A program made the position numbers and the translations under genes. Below the pieces are notes generated by a model. That model had not been told where the DNA came from, did no database searches, and saw only the letters and a program-made list of their open reading frames with translations. A stretch of DNA of 64,000 nt, from positions 62,001 through 126,000 of the forward strand of contig QOCQ01000006.1 of NCBI GenBank assembly GCA_003574685.1, given 5' to 3'. Positions within the stretch are counted from its first letter, which is position 1. Each line of letters opens with the position of its first letter. The DNA comes from Rhodospirillaceae bacterium SYSU D60007 (GTDB lineage: Bacteria > Pseudomonadota > Alphaproteobacteria > Reyranellales > Reyranellaceae). Shown here one piece after another: positions 31,103 through 41,720 of this stretch.

Positions 31103-31585
31103 TTAGTACCGCACCTTGTCCGGCTTTTCCTGCCAGGCCCTGAAGACGGCGCGGGCTTCTTCGGAAGGCAGATGCACGAAGGCGAGTGTGCGCTCGGCCG
31201 GCGGCAGCGGCACCTCGCGATAGATGAATTCGTCGTCGAAGCCGATCGCCGCCGCGTCGTGCCGGGTGCTGGCGTAGACGACACGCGCGGGACGCGCCCA
31301 GTAGATCGCACCCAGACACATCGGGCAGGGCTCGCAGCTCGTGTAGATGACGCAGCCGCGCAACTCGAAATGGCCCAGCGCCTGGCAGGCGGCGCGGATC
31401 GCCGTGATTTCGGCATGCGCGGTGGGATCCCGCGCCGACGTCACCTGGTTCCAGCCGCGCGACAGAACGGTACCGTCCCGCACGACCAGCGCACCGAACG
31501 GCCCGCCAAGGCCGGCCTCCATCTTCTCGCGCGCCAGCCGGATCGCCTCGCGCAGGAATTCCGCATCTCGTGCATCGCCTGTCAT
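31103..31585 (-). CDS. Nucleoside/guanine deaminase (CMP/dCMP-type zinc deaminase)
   Basis: 160 aa cytidine-deaminase-fold enzyme. Zinc motif 1 is TAHAEITAIRAA with His ligand and catalytic Glu (about residues 56-60); motif 2 is SCEPCPMCLGAIYWA with two Cys ligands (about 85-95). The sequence is closest in style to bacterial guanine deaminases (YWARPARVVYA, and the acidic FDDEFIYRE tail). It deaminates guanine or a nucleoside in purine salvage; exact substrate is an inference. It follows ypfJ by 25 nt on the same strand. Confidence 0.9.
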   Translation of the reverse strand: MTGDARDAEFLREAIRLAREKMEAGLGGPFGALVVRDGTVLSRGWNQVTSARDPTAHAEITAIRAACQALGHFELRGCVIYTSCEPCPMCLGAIYWARPARVVYASTRHDAAAIGFDDEFIYREVPLPPAERTLAFVHLPSEEARAVFRAWQEKPDKVRY

Positions 31586-31610
31586 GCGCCGGTCCGGTGC
31601 GCGCGGCGCA

Positions 31611-32561
31611 TCACAGCTCCTGCGTATTGAAGGTATCACAGGCACGTAGCTCGCCGCTCTGCAAGCCGCGCTGGAACCAGCGCTGGCGCTGCGCCGAGGT
31701 GCCATGGGTGAAGCTTTCGGGCTGCACGTAACCGCGCGCCTGGCGCTGGAGCCGGTCGTCGCCGATGGCGGCAGCGGCGCGCAGGCCCTCCTCGACATCG
31801 CCGGGCTCAAGAATCCGGCGCTTCTGATTGGCGTGGAACGCCCATGCACCGGCGAAGCAATCGGCCTGCAGTTCGGTCCGGACCTGCAACGCGTTGGCCT
31901 GGGTGCGGCTCATCCGGCTTTTCGCTTCCTGCACCTTGGCGAGAATGCCAAGCTGGTTCTGGATATGATGGCCGACCTCGTGCCCCAGCACATAGGCTTG
32001 CGCGAAATCGCCCGGTGCCCCGAAGCGCCGCGCGAGCTGATCATAGAATGACAGGTCGATGTACACGCGGTGGTCTTCCGGGCAGTAGAACGGTCCGACT
32101 GCCGCATCGGCCATGCCGCAGGCCGACCGCACGGCGCCCGAAAACAGCACCAGCCGCGGCTTCTGGTATTGCCGGTTCGCCTGGCGCGGCAGTTGCTCGT
32201 CCCACACTTCCTCGGTGCTGCCCAGCACGCGCGCGACGAACTGGCGCATCTCGTCGTCCCGGCCGACGCGGGTGCCGGGCTGGTCGGGCCGCATCGGCCG
32301 CATCTGCGGCGGCGCCGGCACGGGCTGGTACTGGCCGCCGCCGCTGCCGCCGCCCAGCAGCGCTGCCGGATCAAGGCCAAAGAACAGCGCCAGGACCACC
32401 ACGATCACCAGGCCCAGGCCGCCGCCGCCTATCGGCAGCGGCAGGCCGCCGCCACCGGGCCCGCGACCGCCGAAGCCGCCGCCGAACGGCGAGCCGCCGC
32501 TCGCGTCCGTCCCGCGCAGATCGTCCACGTTCTGGCTTTCGGGAGTCTCGTCGAGTCGCAT
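31611..32561 (-). CDS. ypfJ: Neutral zinc metallopeptidase YpfJ family
   Basis: 316 aa. A cytoplasmic Gly-rich N-terminus (residues about 22-48) precedes one TM helix (about 50-65), so the bulk is likely periplasmic. The peptidase domain has LGHEVGHHIQNQLG, where HEVGHH is the zinc/catalytic motif (about residue 195), and a downstream TELQADCFAG with the third zinc ligand. The end (GTSAQRQRWFQRGL) is typical of the family. Substrates are unknown. It lies upstream of the deaminase gene on the same strand. Confidence 0.93.
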   Translation of the reverse strand: MRLDETPESQNVDDLRGTDASGGSPFGGGFGGRGPGGGGLPLPIGGGGLGLVIVVVLALFFGLDPAALLGGGSGGGQYQPVPAPPQMRPMRPDQPGTRVGRDDEMRQFVARVLGSTEEVWDEQLPRQANRQYQKPRLVLFSGAVRSACGMADAAVGPFYCPEDHRVYIDLSFYDQLARRFGAPGDFAQAYVLGHEVGHHIQNQLGILAKVQEAKSRMSRTQANALQVRTELQADCFAGAWAFHANQKRRILEPGDVEEGLRAAAAIGDDRLQRQARGYVQPESFTHGTSAQRQRWFQRGLQSGELRACDTFNTQEL

Positions 32562-32682
32562 GGCAGCCTCCGTGGGCCCAGTATAGCCGGACTCTGTGTC
32601 GCACGGTCACTGCCGTTCCGTTCCCGCCCGGCCATCGTTTGGCGCTACACTGGCCGTTCGTCTCCTCAACGTCCCGGTCGCC

Positions 32683-33561
32683 ATGTCCAGCAGGAATCCC
32701 CGAAAAGCCGCGCGCAGTTTCGCCCTTGCCGTCGATGATGGCGAGTTCCTGCGCCGGGACGAGCTGCGGGGCATCCGCTTCGCGCTGGAGTATGAGAAGG
32801 CCGAGCTGATCCTGCGCGACTGGAAGATCCGCTCGACCATCATCGTGTTCGGCAGTGCGCGGGCACCCTCGCCGGAGCAGCTCGAGGCGTTTCGCAGCAC
32901 GGCGCACGGCAAGGCCGCGCTGGCGCGCCTGGCGCAGCTCAAAGGCCTGGCGCCCTACTACGAGAGTGCGCGCGCCTTTGCGCGGCTGGCTTCGGAGCGT
33001 GGTGGCGCGCTGGCACCGCGCGAGGGTGAGCATTTCAACGTCATCGCCACCGGGGGCGGGCCGGGCACCATGGAGGCGGCCAATCGCGGTGCCGCCGAGG
33101 TCGGCGCGCCGTCGATCGGTTTCAACATCGTGCTGGAGCACGAGGAGGAACCCAACGGCTACTCCACACCCGACCTCACGTTCCAGTTCCATTACTTTGC
33201 GATGCGCAAGATGCACTTTGCCATGCGGGCGCGGGCGCTGGTGATCTTCCCCGGTGGATTCGGGACCTTCGACGAGCTGTTCGAGATCCTGACGCTGCAG
33301 CAGACCGGCAAGGGACGCCGTGCGCCGGTCGTGCTGTTCGGCAGCGACTTCTGGCGGAAGGCCGTCAATTTCGACTGGCTGATCGAGGCCGGTGTCATCG
33401 CCGCCGAGGATACGAGCCTGTTCGATGTCGTGGATACGCCGGAAGACGCCTGGGCTTCGCTGGTGCGCCGTGGCGTGCTCGATCCCGATGGCTTCGTCTG
33501 GCCGCGCCGCAGCGCAAAGGTGGTCACCCCGGCGCGCACCCCGCACAGCGACGAAGCCTAG
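32683..33561 (+). CDS. LOG-family protein (possible nucleotide 5'-monophosphate phosphoribohydrolase)
   Basis: 292 aa, long type of the TIGR00730/LOG family. Rossmann-like fold with IIVFGSARA (about residues 48-56), [16 protein letters not shown] (about 118-133) and the hallmark [12 protein letters not shown] (about 193-204) that carries the catalytic Arg/Glu pair. Plant LOG releases cytokinin bases; bacterial members cleave nucleoside monophosphates. The start at 32683 is favoured because homology begins near there; the frame opens 29 codons earlier. The stop overlaps the convergent kdp remnant by 4 nt. Confidence 0.88.
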
Positions 33562-34541
33562 ACAAGGCGGTAGCCGACGCCAGACTCGGTAAGCAGGTGG
33601 CGGGGGTCGGCGGGGTCGGCTTCGATCTTCTGGCGGAGCTGACGGATGTAGACACGCAGGTACTGCGGGTCGATCGTCTCGTCACGCCACACCTCGCGCA
33701 GCAAGTGGCGGTGTGTCAGCACCTTGCCGGCGTGGATCACGAGCTGCGCAAGGATATCGTATTCCTTGGGCGACAGTTTCACCTCCTGTGCCGCAAGCTG
33801 GACCTGGTGATGCACCAGATCGACCCGCAAGTTGCCGCTGTCGAAGTCTACGCCAGCTTCGGCGGCAATCGCCGCGGCCGTGACGGCGTTGTCGCCGGTA
33901 ATCATCACGGTGCGGATGCCCATCTTGCGCAGCTCGGCGAAACGCTCGCGGATGCCCCCCTTCACGATGTCCTTGAGGTGCACGATGCCCAGGATCTGGC
34001 CGTTCCTCGAAACGGCCAGCGGTGTGCCGCCCTGACGCGCGATATCGCTGGCAATGCGCCCGGCATCCGGCGGAATGATCCTGGCGATTCCGAGGCTGTG
34101 GGCGTGATCGATGATGGCCTCGACGGCACCCTTGCGAATCACAACACCGTCACGATTGACGCCGGACATGCGGGTGTTGGCGGAAAACGGCACGAAGCGG
34201 GCCTTGAGCTCCCCGATCTCCATGCCGCGCAGGCCGTGCCTTTCCTTGGCCAGCACGACGATCGACGGACCTTCTGGCGTGTCGTCGGCGAGGCTGGCCA
34301 GCCGCGCGGCCTCAGCCAGATCCAGCTCGGTGACGCCGCGCACGGGCAGGAACTCGGTCGCCTGACGATTGTCCAGTGTGATGGTACCGGTCTTGTCGAG
34401 CAGCAGCGTGTCGACGTCGCCCGCCGCCTCAACCGAGCGGCCCGACGTGGCCAGCACGTTGAAGCGCACCAGCCGGTCCATGCCGGCAATGCCGATGGCC
34501 GACAGCAAGGCGCCGATCGTGGTCGGGATCAGGGTGACGCG
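33558..34541 (-). pseudogene. kdp operon remnant: KdpB middle part fused to KdpE DNA-binding domain
   Basis: Reading on the minus strand from about 34541 the frame gives [16 protein letters not shown], the KdpB fourth-TM region, then [18 protein letters not shown] (phosphorylation Asp) and on to [19 protein letters not shown], i.e. roughly KdpB residues 260-480 of about 690. At about 33840-33848 it switches in frame to DSGNLRVDL and the KdpE winged-helix domain ([41 protein letters not shown]). KdpB's GDGTNDAP hinge and last TM helices, all of kdpC and kdpD, and the KdpE receiver are absent. No stop interrupts the frame from 34508. K+ transport by this product is impossible; whether the chimera is made is unknown. 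Confidence 0.85.
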
Positions 34542-34600
34542 TAGGCCATCATCAGCAGCATCAGCCCGCAGCCGCCGCCAAGAAATGCCAGATCGGACAT
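34529..34600 (-). pseudogene. kdp leader-type membrane peptide, cut into kdpB remnant
   Basis: A 23-codon frame, [21 protein letters not shown] followed by two codons and a stop. It resembles the small hydrophobic peptide encoded just before kdpF/kdpA in many alphaproteobacteria. The end of the frame already lies in kdpB-derived sequence (out of frame), so kdpF, kdpA and the first third of kdpB have been lost between them, with the joint near 34536-34543. Confidence 0.6.
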
Positions 34601-34656
34601 AGAGAACTCCGCTCGCGGTTCGCGTGGAACGCAGGGCGGATATCGGCTGGTGACGG

Positions 34657-34710
34657 ATAGGAATTCGAGAGGGGTGGCCGGCCCGGTTATAGGAATCGCA
34701 TAGGAATTGC
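34657..34710. promoter_or_regulatory. Helically phased ATAGGAAT repeats before the kdp remnant
   Basis: ATAGGAATTCG (34657-34667), ATAGGAATCGC (34689-34699) and ATAGGAATTGC (34700-34710) are three near-identical 11-mers; the last two abut and the first is 32 bp (about three helical turns) away. They lie 57-110 bp before the leader peptide start, an operator-like position, and may be old response-regulator sites of the kdp promoter. Confidence 0.45.
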
Positions 34711-34731
34711 GCGCCGGTGCTGCCGGCGCGC
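34709..34731 (-). terminator. Hairpin after regA
   Basis: GCGCGCCGG (34709-34717) and CCGGCGCGC (34723-34731) form a perfect 9-bp stem with a 5-nt loop, ending 6 nt after the regA stop on the minus strand. It is followed by AATTCC only, so it is a weak intrinsic or Rho-assisted terminator separating regA from the kdp remnant. Confidence 0.5.
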
Positions 34732-34736
34732 AGCCG

Positions 34737-35297
34737 TCACTGTTCCTTGGGCGCGTGCTTGCCGAGGATGCGCTGCAGGGTGCGGCGATGCATATTGAGC
34801 CGCCGCGCTGTCTCGGAGACGTTGCGATCGCATTGCTCGAAAACGCGCTGGATATGCTCCCAGCGCACACGGTCGGCCGGCATGGGATTGGAGGGTGGCG
34901 GCGGCAGGCGCGTGCCGGTGGCCAGCAGTGCTGCCTCGATCTGGTCGGCGTCGGCAGGCTTGGCGAGGTAGTCGATGGCGCCTTCCTTTACGGCCGCCAC
35001 GGCCGTGGCGATGTTGCCGTAGCCGGTCAGCATCACGATGCGGATATCCGGCCGCGCCTTGCGCAGCGCGCTCACCAGCTCAAGACCGCTGCCGTCGCCC
35101 AGTCGCATGTCGAGCACGGCGTAGGCCGGCGGCTTGTCGACGCAGGACATGGCTTCGGCGACGCTGCCGGCGGAGATCACGGTATAGCCGCGCTGTTCCA
35201 GTGCGCGCGCCAGGCGCGTGCGCAGCGGCGCATCGTCATCGGCGATCAGGATCGTGCGCTCGGCGGCGCTCTGCGCCGGGGTGACGTCTTCTGCCAC
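34737..35297 (-). CDS. regA: Redox response regulator RegA/PrrA/ActR
   Basis: 186 aa. Receiver domain about residues 15-125 with IADDDAPLRTRLARAL, phospho-acceptor Asp in AVLDMRLGDGSG and the conserved Lys in EGAIDYLAKPADADQ. A Pro-rich linker (PPPPSNP) leads to the Fis-type helix-turn-helix (CDRNVSETARRLNMHRRTLQRI), diagnostic of the RegA/PrrA family that controls respiration, photosynthesis, nitrogen and carbon fixation in response to redox. GTG start 35297 is preceded by AAGGAGG at proper spacing. It follows regB by 73 nt. Confidence 0.94.
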   Translation of the reverse strand: MAEDVTPAQSAAERTILIADDDAPLRTRLARALEQRGYTVISAGSVAEAMSCVDKPPAYAVLDMRLGDGSGLELVSALRKARPDIRIVMLTGYGNIATAVAAVKEGAIDYLAKPADADQIEAALLATGTRLPPPPSNPMPADRVRWEHIQRVFEQCDRNVSETARRLNMHRRTLQRILGKHAPKEQ

Positions 35298-35370
35298 ACG
35301 TCCCTCCTTGCGCCGCGGCCCGGGCATCGGCTGTCGCGCAGCCGGGGGCCGGACCGCGGAGGTTTCGTCT

Positions 35371-36759
35371 CTATGTATCGCGGAACACCGGGTTGCGCCA
35401 GCGCACCACCACCCGTGCACCGCCGCCCTCGGCCGGTGAGCGATTGCTGAACCGTACGGTCGCGCCGGTGCGCTCCAGCAGCGTTTTGGCGATGAAGGTG
35501 CCTAGCCCCATGTGGCCGCGGCTGCCGGCGCGTGTCGAAACGAAGGGTGAGCCCAGCTCGTCCAGCAGCATCTCGGGAAAGCCGGGACCATCGTCGGCGA
35601 TCTCCACGTCGACCCAGTCGCGGGTCCACCGCGTCGTCACGCTCACGCGCGTGCGCGCAAAACTGACAGCGTTGTGAACGAGATTGCCAACACCCTGCAG
35701 GAACTCAGGGCCGCGCACCATCACCGGCGGTGCCTGCGGCGCATCGGCTGCGGCGCGTGTCTGTGTGTACTCGATATCGATGCCCTCGCGTCGCCACGGT
35801 TCGCTCGCGGCTTCAACGAGCGCGGGAACCGACACCACACTGTAGGCCTCCGAGACATCGACGGCCGGATCCACCGTCAGCCTTGCGAGAATGGAACGGC
35901 ACCGCTCCGACTGCTCAACCAGCAGATCGACATCGGGCTTCAGCGGATCATCGAGCTCGACCTCGCGCTGCATTTCCCGCGCCGCCAGCGAGATGGTGGA
36001 GAGCGGGCTGCCCAACTCATGGGCGGCGGCTGCCGCCAGGGCGCCCAGCGAGGCCATGCGCTGCTCGTGCGCCAGTGCCGCTGATGCCGCGGCCAATGCA
36101 TCGCCCATCTGCCGGGCTTCCTCCGCAACCCGCCATGTATAGACGGCGATCAGGATGATCGACAGCGTGAGGCTGGCCCAGATCGCCACCATGTAGATGG
36201 GCGGCAGCTCGGGCGGGGGGCCGTCCCACGGCAGCGGGAAATGGAACACGGCCACGAAGCCGGCACACAATGCTGTCAGCGCGGACAGGACCACCACGCT
36301 GCGGACACCCAGCGTCGAGCCCGCGATCGCCACCGGCGCCAGCATCAGCAGCGAGAACGGATTGGAGATGCCGCCTGTGAAGAACAGCAGGAACGTGAGC
36401 TGCAGCGTATCGAAACCGAGGAAAACCGCGGTCTCGCGGTCGTTCAGGCGGGTGGCGCCGGGCTGGCTCAGCTCGAAGCCCAGGTTGAGCGCGGCCGAAA
36501 GCGCGATCGCTGCCGCCACCGGCACAACGGGATAGTCGAAGTTGAGACCCCAGGTGACAACGCCGGCGGTGAATGCCTGGCCGGCCACCGCGATCCAGCG
36601 GATCAGCACCAGCGAGCGCAGACGCACGCCGCCGCGGGAAGGCAGCCGGCGCGTGATCTCTTCGACCGTCGGCGGCATCGGGCGCCGCGGCCCCTCGGTT
36701 CCGGAGGCCGGCTCGCGCCGCGGCTGCGGTCCTGCCGACAGATCCTCGGTCACCACCAT
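35371..36759 (-). CDS. regB: Redox sensor histidine kinase RegB/PrrB/ActS
   Basis: 462 aa. Six TM helices (about residues 45-215) include the quinone-binding GGISNPF. The H-box AAAHELGSPLSTISL has phospho-His247, and Cys287 (SERCRSIL) lies exactly 40 residues later, the spacing of His225 and the redox-active Cys265 in Rhodobacter capsulatus RegB. The ATP-binding domain ends the protein (NLVHNAV, DDGPGFP, GHMGLGTFIAKTLLE). The start is MVVTED at 36759; the frame opens much further up inside the DUF3501 gene. It pairs with the RegA gene downstream. Confidence 0.94.
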   Translation of the reverse strand: MVVTEDLSAGPQPRREPASGTEGPRRPMPPTVEEITRRLPSRGGVRLRSLVLIRWIAVAGQAFTAGVVTWGLNFDYPVVPVAAAIALSAALNLGFELSQPGATRLNDRETAVFLGFDTLQLTFLLFFTGGISNPFSLLMLAPVAIAGSTLGVRSVVVLSALTALCAGFVAVFHFPLPWDGPPPELPPIYMVAIWASLTLSIILIAVYTWRVAEEARQMGDALAAASAALAHEQRMASLGALAAAAAHELGSPLSTISLAAREMQREVELDDPLKPDVDLLVEQSERCRSILARLTVDPAVDVSEAYSVVSVPALVEAASEPWRREGIDIEYTQTRAAADAPQAPPVMVRGPEFLQGVGNLVHNAVSFARTRVSVTTRWTRDWVDVEIADDGPGFPEMLLDELGSPFVSTRAGSRGHMGLGTFIAKTLLERTGATVRFSNRSPAEGGGARVVVRWRNPVFRDT

Positions 36760-36812
36760 GCGCCGATTATGCCACGAGCTTCCCTCGTGGTGACCCGGTA
36801 GTGGCGAAGGAC

Positions 36813-37394
36813 TCAGTCGAAATCGTCGGCCAGGGCGGCGCGGACGGGCTCGGGTATCACGGCCATGTGGCCATAATTGGCGTGGCTGAAGCCGGCGATC
36901 ACCTCCGTGCCGGGGCGGCGGAAGGCGGCGATCTGCGCCGGCGTGAAGGGGAAGTGCACGAAATGGACGGAGGAGGCCTTGCCCGCCTCGTTGGTGCGGT
37001 CCTGGTCTTCTTCGGCAATGCCCTTGATGGTTTCGCCGGCCACGCGCAGCCACATTGTGTGCTCGATGCCGCCCAGCGTGGCGAGCACGCGCGCGCGGCG
37101 CACGGGATCGTCGATCTCGAACATCACCGTCGCGGTGAGCTCGCGGCCATCGGGAATCAAGGGATTATAGGCCGCCAGCTCGTCGGGAATCTGTTCGGCG
37201 CCGGCCTTCTCGATGAACAGCATTTCCTGCACCTGGTGCAGCATGGTGTCGAAGTTCTCGAAATAGAAGGTCGCGAACGGTCCGACCTCGACGCGCCGCA
37301 ACCGCTTGGTCTGCGTCAGCGAACGCCGGCGCTCGGCGCGCACTTTCGCGTACTCGGAAAGCGGCAGGACATCGGCTGGGGTGATCTTGCGCAT
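36813..37394 (-). CDS. DUF3501 family protein
   Basis: 193 aa matching DUF3501 (MRKITPADVLPLSEY at the start, the FATFYFENFDTMLHQVQEML segment and HFPFTPAQIAAFR near 145). The family has no proven activity; it is recurrently encoded next to a CCG-domain Fe-S protein and rubrerythrin, as here (gap of 38 nt to the Fe-S gene upstream). A role with those in a peroxide or redox system is inferred from this context only. Confidence 0.9.
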   Translation of the reverse strand: MRKITPADVLPLSEYAKVRAERRRSLTQTKRLRRVEVGPFATFYFENFDTMLHQVQEMLFIEKAGAEQIPDELAAYNPLIPDGRELTATVMFEIDDPVRRARVLATLGGIEHTMWLRVAGETIKGIAEEDQDRTNEAGKASSVHFVHFPFTPAQIAAFRRPGTEVIAGFSHANYGHMAVIPEPVRAALADDFD

Positions 37395-37432
37395 GACAGG
37401 CGTCCAGTGCCGGCGGACCGGCGATTCGGGTG

Positions 37433-38785
37433 TCAGGGCACGAGCCCGTATGCCCTCGCGAACAGCTCGATCGGGTGATGGGCGCGCGCCGGCCGGGGTG
37501 GCTCGCCATCGGCCGCGCTGAGCTGCATGACCTGCAGCAGGTGGTCAGCCGCCAGCGGGCATTCGGAGGCGACATGCGCATGGCCCTCGCGCAACGCCTG
37601 GCGGGCAGCCGGCTTGCCGACCTTCACCGCCACGTCGAAATTCTCGCGCCGCGCGCCCCATACACCGCCGTGACCCGAGCAGCGCTCGATGACGGAGACG
37701 GTCGCGTCGGGGATCAGCCGCAGCAGCTCGGCGGCCTTGGCGCCCATGTTCTGCGCCCGCGCATGGCAGGCAAGGTGGACCGACACGCCGCCTTCGAGCG
37801 TGCCCAGACCCGGCGCCAAGCCTTCCTTCTTCGCAACGTCGACGACGTACTCGGCGATATCGTAGGTGGCCTGCGCCAGGCGCTTGACCGGCTCATCGCC
37901 GGGCAGGATCAGCGGCCACTCGAATTTCAGCATCAGCGCACAGGAGGAAGTGAGCGCGATGACGTCATAGCCGTTGTCGACCCAGGGCATCAGCGCAGCC
38001 GTCACAGTGCGCGCCGCCTCGGCGACAGCAGCGATGTCACCCAGCTCCAGCTTCGGCATGCCGCAGCAAGCAGGGTGCACCACCTCTGTTTCAACCCCGT
38101 TGTGCGCGAGAACGGCGCGCGTCGCGATGCCGATATCGGTGTTGTTGAAGTTGCCGTAGCAGGTGGCGTAAAGCACCGCCTTGCGCTTGCCACAGGCCGG
38201 TGCGTCGCGGTTGATGACGAACGTTTCCCGCTGCGCGCGATTCACGAACGTCTCGTCGGCGTAGCGCGGCAGGTGCGCGCCGTGATGGATGCCCGCGACG
38301 CTTTCCATCAGTCCGCGGGTCGTGGCGTTCTTCTCGTCGGTAGCCCAGTTCACCAGACCGGATGCCAGATTGCCCAGCCGGCCGTTGCGGTCCGTCTCTG
38401 CCATCTGCCGGTGCATGAACTTGATGCCGTGCTTCTTCGCCTGCACCGCGCGGTAGCGCAGCATGAGGTGTGGGAAGTCGAGGTTCCACGAATGCGGCGG
38501 CACGTACGGGCACTTCGTCATGAAGCACATGTCGCAGAGCGTGCAGGCATCGACCACGGTGGCGAAGTCTTCGCTCTTCACGCCCTCGACCTCGCCGACA
38601 TCCGTGGCATCGACCAGATCGAACAGGCGGGGAAAGGAGTCGCAGAGATTGAAACAGCGCCGGCAGCCGTGACAGATGTCGAAGACGCGGCGCATCTCTG
38701 CGTCGAGGCGGGCCTCGTCGTAGAACGCATCGCTGGTCCACGCCAGCGGATGCCGGGTGGGGGCTTCCAGGCTGCCTTCGCGCAT
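37433..38785 (-). CDS. CCG-domain [4Fe-4S] oxidoreductase subunit (GlpC/HdrD-like)
   Basis: 450 aa. Two [4Fe-4S] ferredoxin motifs: Cys38-41-44-48 ([11 protein letters not shown]) and Cys81-84-87-92 ([12 protein letters not shown]). Two CCG domains follow, with [14 protein letters not shown] (about residue 245) and CSGHGGVWG (about 390). This is the layout of electron-transfer subunits such as GlpC or heterodisulfide reductase D. With rubrerythrin upstream and DUF3501 downstream it probably passes electrons to a peroxide-reducing diiron protein; that link is an inference from the repeated gene neighbourhood. Confidence 0.9.
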
Positions 38786-38804
38786 GGGAATGTCGCAGGA
38801 ACGG

Positions 38805-38832
38805 CGGCGGAGACGGCAGGCCGTCTCCGCCG
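38805..38832 (-). terminator. Strong hairpin between rubrerythrin and Fe-S genes
   Basis: CGGCGGAGACGG and CCGTCTCCGCCG form a perfect 12-bp stem around a 4-nt loop, 19 nt after the rubrerythrin stop and 20 nt before the Fe-S gene start. Only a TTCC follows on the minus strand, so it may attenuate or protect the mRNA rather than end transcription, giving more rubrerythrin than downstream product. Confidence 0.5.
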
Positions 38833-38851
38833 GCTATGACAGGGAAGTGTT

Positions 38852-39271
38852 TCAGGCCAGCGTGTCGAGCGCCTTCTGGAAACGGCCAGCGTGGCTCTTC
38901 TCGGCCTTGGCCAGAGTCTCGAACCACTCGGCGATTTCCTCGAAGCCCTCTTCGCGCGCCGTGCGGGCCATGCCCGGGTACATGTCGGTGTACTCGTGCG
39001 TCTCGCCGGCAATCGCTGCCTTCAGGTTGTCGGAGGTGCCGCCGATCTTCAGACCGGTGGCCGGGTCGCCCACGGCCTCGAGGAACTCGAGATGGCCGTG
39101 CGCGTGGCCCGTTTCGCCTTCCGCGGTGGAGCGGAAGACGGCGGCAACGTCGTTGTAACCCTCGACGTCAGCCTTCTGCGCGAAATAGAGGTAGCGCCGG
39201 TTGGCCTGGCTCTCGCCGGCAAACGCGGCCTTCAGGTTGCCTTCCGTCTTGGAACCACCAAGCTTGCTCAT
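38852..39271 (-). CDS. Rubrerythrin (diiron peroxidase, no rubredoxin domain)
   Basis: 139 aa four-helix ferritin-like protein. Diiron ligands are visible as [14 protein letters not shown] (helix 1), [10 protein letters not shown] (E-x2-H, helix 2), [11 protein letters not shown] (helix 3) and EKSHAGRF (helix 4). The usual C-terminal rubredoxin-like domain is absent, giving the short type common in alphaproteobacteria. It reduces hydrogen peroxide using an external electron donor, likely the Fe-S protein encoded next. Start MSKLGG at 39271. An ICE-like palindrome and a good promoter lie upstream. Confidence 0.93.
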
Positions 39272-39345
39272 CGGATTGTCTCCCTCTCGGTGCGGCGGGC
39301 GGGCGCCGCAGGCGGTCACACAAGGTCCGCAGGTGACCGCTGCCG

Positions 39346-39374
39346 TTTATAGGAAGGCCCCGGCAGGTGGTCAA
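39346..39374 (-). promoter_or_regulatory. Sigma70-type promoter of the rubrerythrin operon
   Basis: On the minus strand TTGACC (39374-39369) and TATAAA (39351-39346) are separated by exactly 17 bp. It is the best-matched promoter noticed in the window. The -10 is about 75 nt from the rubrerythrin start. Confidence 0.7.
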
Positions 39375-39377
39375 CAG

Positions 39378-39394
39378 TTTAGAGGGATTCTAAA
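39378..39394. promoter_or_regulatory. ICE-like Irr-binding palindrome
   Basis: TTTAGAGGGATTCTAAA has perfect arms TTTAGA/TCTAAA over a 5-nt centre and closely matches the iron control element (TTTAGAA-N3-TTCTAAA) bound by Irr in rhizobia. It ends 4 bp upstream of the -35 of the rubrerythrin promoter and lies 30 bp after the irr stop. Position immediately upstream of -35 is compatible with either activation or repression. Confidence 0.65.
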
Positions 39395-39423
39395 AAGGGT
39401 GAGCGGTCGGTCGCCGCTGTCAG

Positions 39424-39831
39424 CTAGCGGCGGACGCGCACCACGACGTCAACGCGCTCCAGCCGCATGCCCTCGGGGGCCGAAGGCAGGCGCGCAATCG
39501 CCACCCGGTCAGCCGGGATGTCGAGCAGGGTGCCCTCGTTCTCGATGTAGAAATGGTGGTGATCGCCGACGTTGGTGTCGAAGTAGAGCCGGCCGGGCCC
39601 GACCACCACCTCGCGCAGCAATCCTGCCGCCGTGAACTGGTTCAGCGCGTTGTAGACGGTTGCCAGGGAAACCCGACCGCCGCGCGCCGCCACCTCGGCA
39701 TGCAGTTGCTCGGCCGTGACATGCCGGTCGCGGCCGCCGCCGAACAGCAGCGCCCCCAGCGCCAGGCGCTGGCGGGTGGGCCGCAGGCCGGCCGTACGCA
39801 AACGATCGGCGATGGCGGACGTGCTGCACAT
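39424..39831 (-). CDS. irr: Iron response regulator Irr (Fur family)
   Basis: 135 aa. Fur-type winged helix (residues about 5-85: [42 protein letters not shown] here in parts) followed by the Irr-specific [17 protein letters not shown] with the His triplet involved in heme binding, and the [15 protein letters not shown] end. The N-terminal Cys-Pro heme regulatory motif of Bradyrhizobium Irr is absent (MCSTSAI), as in many other Irr proteins. Irr reads heme availability. It is divergent from fabA, an arrangement common in alphaproteobacteria. Confidence 0.93.
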
Positions 39832-39893
39832 GCGACGCTCTATTACGCCAAGCCGCGGCGGTTGCCTAGTGGCGGGTTCAGGCCGCCAGGTGC

Positions 39894-39899
39894 TTGACA
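39894..39899 (+). promoter_or_regulatory. Possible -35 element of the fab operon
   Basis: TTGACA lies 75 bp before the fabA start in the 142-bp irr-fabA divergent gap. No clear -10 stands 16-18 bp downstream (TTTCCG), so only the -35 is supported. Confidence 0.35.
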
Positions 39900-39973
39900 C
39901 GGCGGGGAATTGTTTGTTTCCGGGCCCCACCCTATCTGTTAGAACGCCTGCGACCCTGGAGCATGGACGGCAC

Positions 39974-40486
39974 GTGACCGGCAAGAGCAGCTACACCTAC
40001 GACGACCTCATCCAGTGTGCAAAGGGCCTGCTCTTCGGGCCCGGTAATGCCCAGCTACCGCTGCCGCCGATGCTGATGCTCGACCGCATCGTGCGCATCT
40101 CCGACAAGGGCGGCAAGTACGGCAAGGGCGAGATCGTCGCGGAGCTGGACGTCAAGCCGGACCTCTGGTTCTTCCCTGTCCATTTCCAGGGAGATCCGGT
40201 GATGCCGGGCTGCCTCGGACTGGATGCCATGTGGCAGCTCGTCGGTTTCTTCCTGGGCTGGATGAAGGCACCGGGACGCGGCCGCGCCCTGGGCGTGGGC
40301 GAGGTGAAGTTCAGCGGCATGGTGACGCCGGCCATCCGCAAGGTCACCTATCACATCCACCTCAAGCGTGTGATTCTGCGCAAGCTGGTAATGGGCATTG
40401 CTGACGGTGTGGTAGAGGCCGACGGCAAGCCCATCTTTGAAGCCAGCGATATCAAGGTCGGACTCTTCCAGCCACAGGCAGCCTGA
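39974..40486 (+). CDS. fabA: 3-hydroxydecanoyl-ACP dehydratase/isomerase FabA
   Basis: 170 aa hot-dog fold enzyme that introduces the cis double bond for unsaturated fatty acids. Active-site His70 in [14 protein letters not shown] and Asp84 in [15 protein letters not shown] sit at the same numbers as in E. coli. GTG start at 39974. It is followed by fabB (1-nt gap) and fabI, and is divergent from irr. Confidence 0.96.
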
Positions 40487-40487
40487 C

Positions 40488-41720
40488 GTGCGCCGCGTTG
40501 TCGTCACCGGAATCGGGGTGGTTTCCAGCATCGGCAACAATGCTGGCGAGGTGGCGGCTGCACTGAAGGAAGGCCGCTCCGGCATCGAGTTTGCGCCTCA
40601 ATACCGCGACTTTGGCTTCCGCTGCCAGGTGCACGGCACGCTCAAGGTCGATCTTGACGCCACCGTCGACCGCCGTCTGCGGCGTTTCATGGGCGACGGC
40701 TCGGCCTATGCGTGGCTCGCCATGAAGGAAGCGATCGGCGATGCGGGCCTCGACGAGAAGGACATCTCCAACGACCGCACCGGCCTGATCGCGGGCTCAG
40801 GCGGGCCGACAACCGGCGCCATCGTGCAGGCGGCACAGATCACGCGGGAGAAGGGACCCAAGCGGATTGGGCCGTTCAGCGTGCCAAAAGCGATGTCGAG
40901 CACGGTGTCGGCCAACCTCGGCACCGCCTTCAGGGTCAAGGGGCCGACCTATTCGATCACCTCGGCGTGCTCCACCTCTGCGCATTGCATCGGCAACGCG
41001 GCCGAGACGATCATGCTTGGCAAGGCCGATCGCATGTTTGCGGGCGGCGGCGAGGAGCTCGACTGGACGCTGTCGGTGTTGTTCGATGCAATGGGTGCGA
41101 TGTCGGCAAAGTACAACGACACCCCCGCGCGTGCCAGCCGCGCCTACGATCGTGACCGTGACGGCTTCGTGATCTCTGGCGGCGGCGGTATCCTCGTCCT
41201 GGAAGATTACGAGCTGGCGAGGGCACGCGGCGCCAAAATGTATGGCGAGATTATCGGTTACGGCGCCACGGGCGACGGAGCCGACATGGTGGCGCCATCG
41301 GGCGAAGGTGCGGTGCGCGCCATGCGGCTGGCGCTGGACGGCTTTGGCGGTGCGCGCGGCAACCGGCGCATCGACTACATCAACACGCACGGCACCTCCA
41401 CGCCGGTCGGCGACATTACCGAGTTGGAGGCGATCCGCGAGGTCTTCGGCGAGGATCTGCCCGCGATCAGCTCGACCAAGTCGCTGGCTGGCCACAGCCA
41501 GGGTGCGACCGGCGTGCACGAGGCGGTCTATTCGCTGTTGATGCTCCGCGACGATTTCGTTGCCGCCTCGGCCAACATCGAGAACCTCGATCCCGGCGCC
41601 GAAGGCTTTCCGATCGCGCGGCAGCGCATCGATCAGGCGGGGCTGGAGACCGTGATGACCAACAGCTTCGGCTTCGGCGGCACCAATGCGGTGCTGGTGT
41701 TTCAGCGGGTGGAGGGATGA
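40488..41720 (+). CDS. fabB: 3-oxoacyl-ACP synthase I FabB
   Basis: 410 aa condensing enzyme elongating FabA's unsaturated product. Catalytic triad Cys161 ([11 protein letters not shown]), His301 ([11 protein letters not shown]) and His336 ([12 protein letters not shown]). The GTG start at 40488 comes one nt after the fabA stop and begins [13 protein letters not shown]; the frame is open 17 codons earlier inside fabA. The stop overlaps the fabI start (ATGA). Confidence 0.96.

Follow-up and report, generated by a model that had tools for sequence, protein, structure and literature searches.

A collapsed kdp operon, probably a young pseudogene, with a chance in-frame kdpB-kdpE fusion in a Reyranellaceae genome

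The window analyzed here, a stretch of 64,000 nucleotides from Rhodospirillaceae bacterium SYSU D60007 (G000), holds on its minus strand, at 33558-34708, the remains of a kdp operon that very probably represent a pseudogenized operon of recent date, in which two genes were fused in frame by chance. In operon order and orientation, three pieces survive: the promoter together with the 5' part of a short leader ORF, a central stretch of kdpB, and that half of kdpE which encodes the DNA-binding domain. The collapsed operon measures ~1.15 kb. The source of all three pieces is a kdpFABC-kdpDE operon, which encodes a high-affinity K+ P-type ATPase and a two-component system. The locus resembles the kdpFABC-kdpDE operons of the same genus in its order, promoter region and leader ORF. 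Unlike them, it is devoid of kdpF, kdpA, kdpC, kdpD and most of kdpB and kdpE, so that neither a transporter nor a sensor is possible. An earlier sequence-only reading had proposed the same anatomy of leader, central kdpB and kdpE DNA-binding half, which profile, PDB and blastn comparisons bear out (Table 1).

Table 1. Features of the collapsed kdp locus in window coordinates, and a repeat in a related operon
Feature	Position	Strand	Description
Leader-like small ORF	34529..34600	-	23 codons plus stop; 3' end replaced at joint 1
Kept kdp promoter region and leader 5' end	34540..34708	-	blastn to G001, G003, G002
Tandem TTCCTAT-N4-TTCCTAT	34689..34706	-	Perfect; putative KdpE-binding box
Joint 1 (leader / kdpB)	34539..34540	-	2627-2762 bp absent relative to three relatives
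kdpB piece	33846..34539	-	85-88% DNA identity to three same-genus kdpB genes; sharp ends
Joint 2 (kdpB / kdpE)	33845..33846	-	Frame kept; 4344-10431 bp absent relative to three relatives
kdpE piece	33558..33845	-	Winged-helix DNA-binding domain to stop codon; 81-83% DNA identity to same-genus kdpE
KdpB-KdpE chimera ORF	33558..34508	-	316 codons from TTG; ORF listing, profile and PDB searches; most likely a non-working gene
LOG-family gene stop codon	33559..33561	+	Convergent with chimera; read from sequence
Repeat in G003 kdp operon	L117 11837-11952 and 17963-18095	both orientations	Also at several intergenic places in G001

The chimera contains no stop codon or frameshift along its entire length, and the ORF listing confirms the claimed count of open codons, with TTG as the start. 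Residues 1-221 correspond to KdpB (TIGR01497 positions 268-486 of 675, E 3e-85) and align in a phmmer search of the PDB to residues 262-480 of KdpB chain 5mrw_B. With 286.7 bits against the TIGR01497 cut-off of 527.9 bits, the chimera falls short of a full-length KdpB equivalog. The kdpB piece spans VTLIPTTIG, which we take to be TM4, through DKTGT and the N domain to TGDN...AGVD, and the phosphorylation motif DKTGT is present in a stretch at residues 35-44. Missing from the P domain is its second half with the TGDGTNDAPAL motif, as is all that comes after it in KdpB, since the match stops at 5mrw_B residue 480 and the motif follows after residue 503.

Residues 213-315 correspond to KdpE (NF007820 positions 122-223 of 225, E 2.8e-26), with residues 225-315 aligning to residues 134-225 of KdpE chain 4kny_A in the phmmer search, and the homology reaches downstream to the last coding bases (33559). 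KdpB and KdpE similarity, whose absence on either side of the joint had been named as a refutation of the fusion, is present on both sides. Like OmpR/PhoB-type response regulators, to which KdpE belongs, the chimera carries a complete PF00486 winged helix (residues 241-315, E 1.8e-22); unlike them, it is fused to a P-type ATPase fragment and has no receiver domain, PF00072 (Response_reg) giving no match to it at E 0.01 or better. The opposite strand of the same DNA carries an ORF of 315 aa, which indicates that open frames are cheap in this G+C-rich sequence. As the openness of the frame goes back to the two parent genes, luck was needed only for the phase at a single joint (1 in 3). Structure prediction of the chimera from a 15-row alignment was uninformative (mean pLDDT 39.8, pTM 0.33).

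Both joints were placed by blastn against the kdp operons of three same-genus genomes (G001, G002 and G003, referred to as sisters), using the alignments that reach the joint base; the G003 kdpB DNA alignment ends ten bases before joint 2, while the protein alignment reaches residue 221. The two deletions claimed by the sequence-only reading could be located at single positions, each inside its predicted interval (34520-34560 and 33820-33870), and the claimed retention of the frame at the second joint was confirmed by the continuous chimera. In G003, G001 and G002, respectively, the relatives hold 2719, 2762 and 2627 bp of extra DNA at joint 1 and 7858, 10431 and 4344 bp at joint 2. The large values at joint 2 include additional DNA between kdpC and kdpD in G001 and G003, while the G002 operon is compact. 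The proposed losses of roughly 2.5 and 4 kb hold for the compact G002 operon. No obvious long shared sequence or repeat was seen at either joint in the printed joint sequences, which fits illegitimate deletion. As a side observation, the kdpC-kdpD interval of G003 holds extra genes (Gcw_chp, DHDPS-like), with similar DNA at that place in G001, and a repeat of ~115-130 bp occurs in both orientations between the kdp genes of G001 and G003.

The upstream piece keeps the kdp promoter. In blastn, the promoter region matches G001 at 75.9% over 174 bp and G003 at 72.5% over 182 bp, and the homology ends at 34707/34708 in both; in G002 the alignment covers the leader end only (81% over 48 bp) and reaches no further than 34585. 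Leader homologues of ~27 residues precede kdpF in G001, G002, G003, G005, G010, G021, G023 and G041. The conserved leader ORF looks like a membrane peptide, and a Pfam search of the G003 copy gave no match.

The tandem TTCCTAT element is probably a KdpE box, judged by its place and the type of KdpE. It is the sole site in its own genome with at most one mismatch, and a reversed-pattern control gave 0. In the sisters the same threshold returned four sites, only that of G001 lying at the kdp promoter, where G002 and G003 carry weaker forms. By eye, the element stands ahead of kdp with at most one mismatch in G001, G010, G021 and G023 and in weaker form in G002, G003 and G005, and none was seen in G041. 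A scan at up to two mismatches of the 80 loci listed of 583 confirmed found a match somewhere in 15, and several of these lie ~3 kb ahead of the KdpB match, which is the place of the kdp promoter.

Pairing with the anti-Shine-Dalgarno sequence is weak (-1.7 kcal/mol) at both the TTG at 34508 and an ATG at 34481, whereas an internal GTG at 34193 pairs well (-7.3). The case that the chimera may be without a convincing start is a weak argument, because of this GTG and because two of five control starts were no better than -3.0; the controls ranged from -9.5 to +0.4 and included some mechanical ORF starts that are perhaps not true starts.

The genomic place of the remnant differs from that of the intact operons in the genus. 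The window block 31105-40928 is collinear with contig C34 of G001 and likewise with contig C26 of G003. An intact kdpFABCDE, expected at the same place between the LOG gene and regA, is not there in either of these same-genus genomes with the collinear block. In G001 the LOG gene adjoins regA, with 28 bp corresponding to window 33511-34723, and in G003 the gap is filled by an unrelated 568-codon ORF (L149 10872-12578) without a Pfam match. The convergent LOG-regA gap seems to accept insertions repeatedly. Elsewhere in the block, G003 has ~4.8 kb between regB and the DUF3501 gene (L149 3840-8693) that are all but missing from the window and from G001.

The kdp operons of all three sisters sit instead between aroA and cmk-rpsA, and in G001 and G003 some additional sequence separates aroA from the kdp promoter. 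Judging by these neighbours, the kdp operon has moved to another place within the genus. In G000, just a few bases separate aroA from cmk. An excision of kdp from this site was considered, and the tight spacing rather suggests that the operon was never there. Among five other kdp loci with flanks (four from another genus of the family, one from another family), no aroA, cmk, rpsA, LOG or regAB neighbour was found at the thresholds used; the single regA-type match in G010 (42% identical) is located at kdpE. The operon is also patchy across the family: of 36 family genomes, some incomplete drafts among them, 24 reached E 1e-89 or better for KdpB, 3 had a match only at 1e-37 to 1e-44 (KdpE side), and the remaining 9 reached neither this KdpB level nor ~1e-37 on the KdpE side.

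The rest of the parent operon was not found in the genome, and the parent genes are incomplete compared with those of relatives. The assembly comprises 58 contigs (5.34 Mb, 99.81% complete) and contains no KdpC and no second close match to the chimera. Six other matches are distant: a single one concerns the KdpB part, at 33% identity, and the KdpE part accounts for five (31-41%). With the whole G003 operon (11,951 bases) as a DNA query, 19 matches were obtained, of which three are this locus (C55:95847-96577, 95559-95845 and 96540-96708). The one other strong match (C55:13239-13982) is to the extra Gcw_chp gene between kdpC and kdpD of G003, the remainder are 15 short or weak matches with E 3e-11 at best, and no further kdp gene DNA was found with this query. 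One Kup-type potassium transporter is present.

The fusion is apparently private to this genome. As a query we used 81 residues around the joint, which finds fusions with this joint only, and among the matches listed the sole full-length match was the genome itself. The database search suggested by the sequence-only reading yielded no high-scoring match across the joint elsewhere: judged by the best E of each genome with a match, the best match was 2.8e-19 in 74 other family genomes and 2.1e-18 in 384 other genomes of a class sample, in both cases on the KdpB side only. Any match at all was obtained in 73 of 75 family genomes and 185 of the 385 in the class sample, four of which are also in the family set. 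In these genomes the same fusion was not found in more than one lineage. Weak matches across the joint position, among the matches listed, came from G242 (44% identity over 2-64, E 9e-10) and G064 (44% identity over 8-75), and the family search with the whole chimera returned G015 (55% identity over residues 151-316). From the lengths of their open frames, G242 and G064 (746 and 838 codons) look like ordinary P-type ATPases and G015 (233 codons) looks like a whole KdpE. The 80 listed loci of the 583 confirmed match chimera residues 1-221 only.

To assess conservation, the KdpB piece was compared with 104 others (24 family loci and the 80 listed loci of 583 confirmed). Two changes, G46D just after DKTGTITL and R81P in TPEGRS, fall in columns that are invariant in all 104 and unchanged in the three sisters. 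At the 99% level (86 columns), G000 shows three changes and each sister one, common to all four genomes; at the 95% level (111 columns), G000 deviates at 5 and the sisters at 2, 3 and 3. In the kdpE piece, none of 19 columns at the 95% level is changed in G000 or the sisters, a low-power test for which a match was obtained from 62 of the 86 loci supplied.

Selection was assessed on three topologies for omega and on two for the neutral tail, because the root of the genus is not settled. In the regAB protein tree, which is without G002 (no regB match), G000 falls outside G001+G003 with support 98, and the corresponding tree from DNA is undecided (60). Within the genus, the tree of the kdp pieces reaches supports of 44 and 60, and aroA-cmk-rpsA gives an unrooted quartet. 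For the G000 branch, omega comes to 0.045-0.051 with a background of 0.033-0.034, a difference that is not significant (2 delta lnL 1.1-1.2), and omega = 1 on this branch is rejected on all three topologies (2 delta lnL 16 to 91). Taken alone on one topology, the kdpB piece gives 0.054 versus 0.027 (2 delta lnL 2.97) and the kdpE piece 0.034 versus 0.067 (2 delta lnL 1.09). A model with a neutral tail prefers 0-1% of the branch and allows ~3% (T1) to 6% (T2) within two log units, limits that are rough because the codon-model branch lengths look saturated (2-3; third-position G+C 0.89). The kdp-piece branch of G000 is long (0.141 versus 0.045-0.069 in the sisters), and so is its aroA-cmk-rpsA branch (0.157 versus 0.069-0.110). 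Both the low dN/dS and the changes at invariant sites would fit a young collapse, confined to the last few per cent of the branch.

The way in which the pieces are ordered and oriented, and where their outer ends lie, suggests that a complete kdp operon once stood in the convergent LOG-regA gap. There it may have become dispensable, with another potassium transporter present, and two illegitimate deletions, whose order we infer, would have removed the interior. What remains is the promoter, a shortened leader ORF, the central part of kdpB and the terminal part of kdpE. The frame across joint 2 would have been kept by a 1-in-3 chance, with little time so far for the remnant to gather stops. A patchwork origin would mean that individual kdp fragments became linked and entered the LOG-regA gap without a complete operon ever having been there. 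In its favour, sisters with the same block lack kdp at this place (G001 has 28 bp, G003 an unrelated ORF), so that the place accepts foreign DNA. We consider such an origin highly improbable, as the three pieces keep operon order and orientation and their outer ends lie at the promoter and the kdpE stop, as expected for a shrunken whole unit. An assembly or binning artefact, with a whole operon in the true genome and a contig that skips its interior, is conceivable in a draft of 58 contigs. It is extremely unlikely given that the missing kdp genes are not found elsewhere in this nearly complete genome, that the contig of 233 kb is collinear with two sisters on both sides, that both joints lie inside coding sequence with no evident shared repeat, and that the pieces carry private changes.

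The open 316 codons and the low dN/dS fit a maintained protein as well, and the promoter box is perfect, which runs contrary to a pseudogene. The chimera could be viewed as a domesticated regulator, in which a receiver-less KdpE winged helix on a KdpB nucleotide-binding domain, made from the kdp promoter, binds DNA constitutively or in an ATP-dependent manner. The open frame, the kept promoter with its perfect tandem box, the complete kdpE domain with unchanged conserved columns, and the rejection of omega = 1 are all compatible with such a role. Against it stand the restriction of the fusion to one genome, two radical changes at invariant KdpB sites, the weak 5' start codons, and the lack of a second close box (at most one mismatch) in the genome as a target, while the low omega can predate the collapse. 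We regard a domesticated regulator as very unlikely, and the more specific picture of a newly arisen, deletion-born and self-regulating protein that binds its own TTCCTAT box as highly doubtful. If made, the chimeric protein should do nothing useful, given that the P domain is cut before TGDGTND, that most of the membrane part is gone together with KdpF, KdpA and KdpC, that the KdpE domain lacks a receiver, and that the only close box found is that of its own promoter; from these losses we infer that the chimera lacks function. Among the three explanations offered by the sequence-only reading, the recent pseudogene is best supported, the domesticated regulator is without positive evidence, and the artefact is unlikely.

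A comparable loss has been described in Francisella tularensis SchuS4, where kdpE and kdpA are listed as pseudogenes (PMC6584805). Both cases share a loss of kdp function by gene decay; in Francisella single genes are broken in a standing operon, whereas here two large deletions would have led to a chance in-frame fusion. Among the papers listed by literature searches on kdp pseudogenes and kdpB-kdpE fusions, none names such a fusion in its title or abstract opening. Read as a pseudogene, the ruin would be a clean example of a dispensable operon collapsing by deletion and of the chance origin of in-frame chimeras, next to a relocation of the kdp operon within one genus. The locus would bear on the origin of new regulators only if the chimera is expressed.

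Further minor observations concern the edges of the remnant. The palindrome CTAG (33558-33561) is common to the stop codons of the LOG gene and the chimera at their convergent ends, and the LOG tail is about a dozen residues longer than that of LOG in G001. At the opposite edge, between regA and the kdp promoter, the window carries a perfect hairpin with 9-bp arms, GCGCGCCGG-TGCTG-CCGGCGCGC, at 34709-34731, and the LOG-regA gap of G001 contains a different G+C-rich palindrome.
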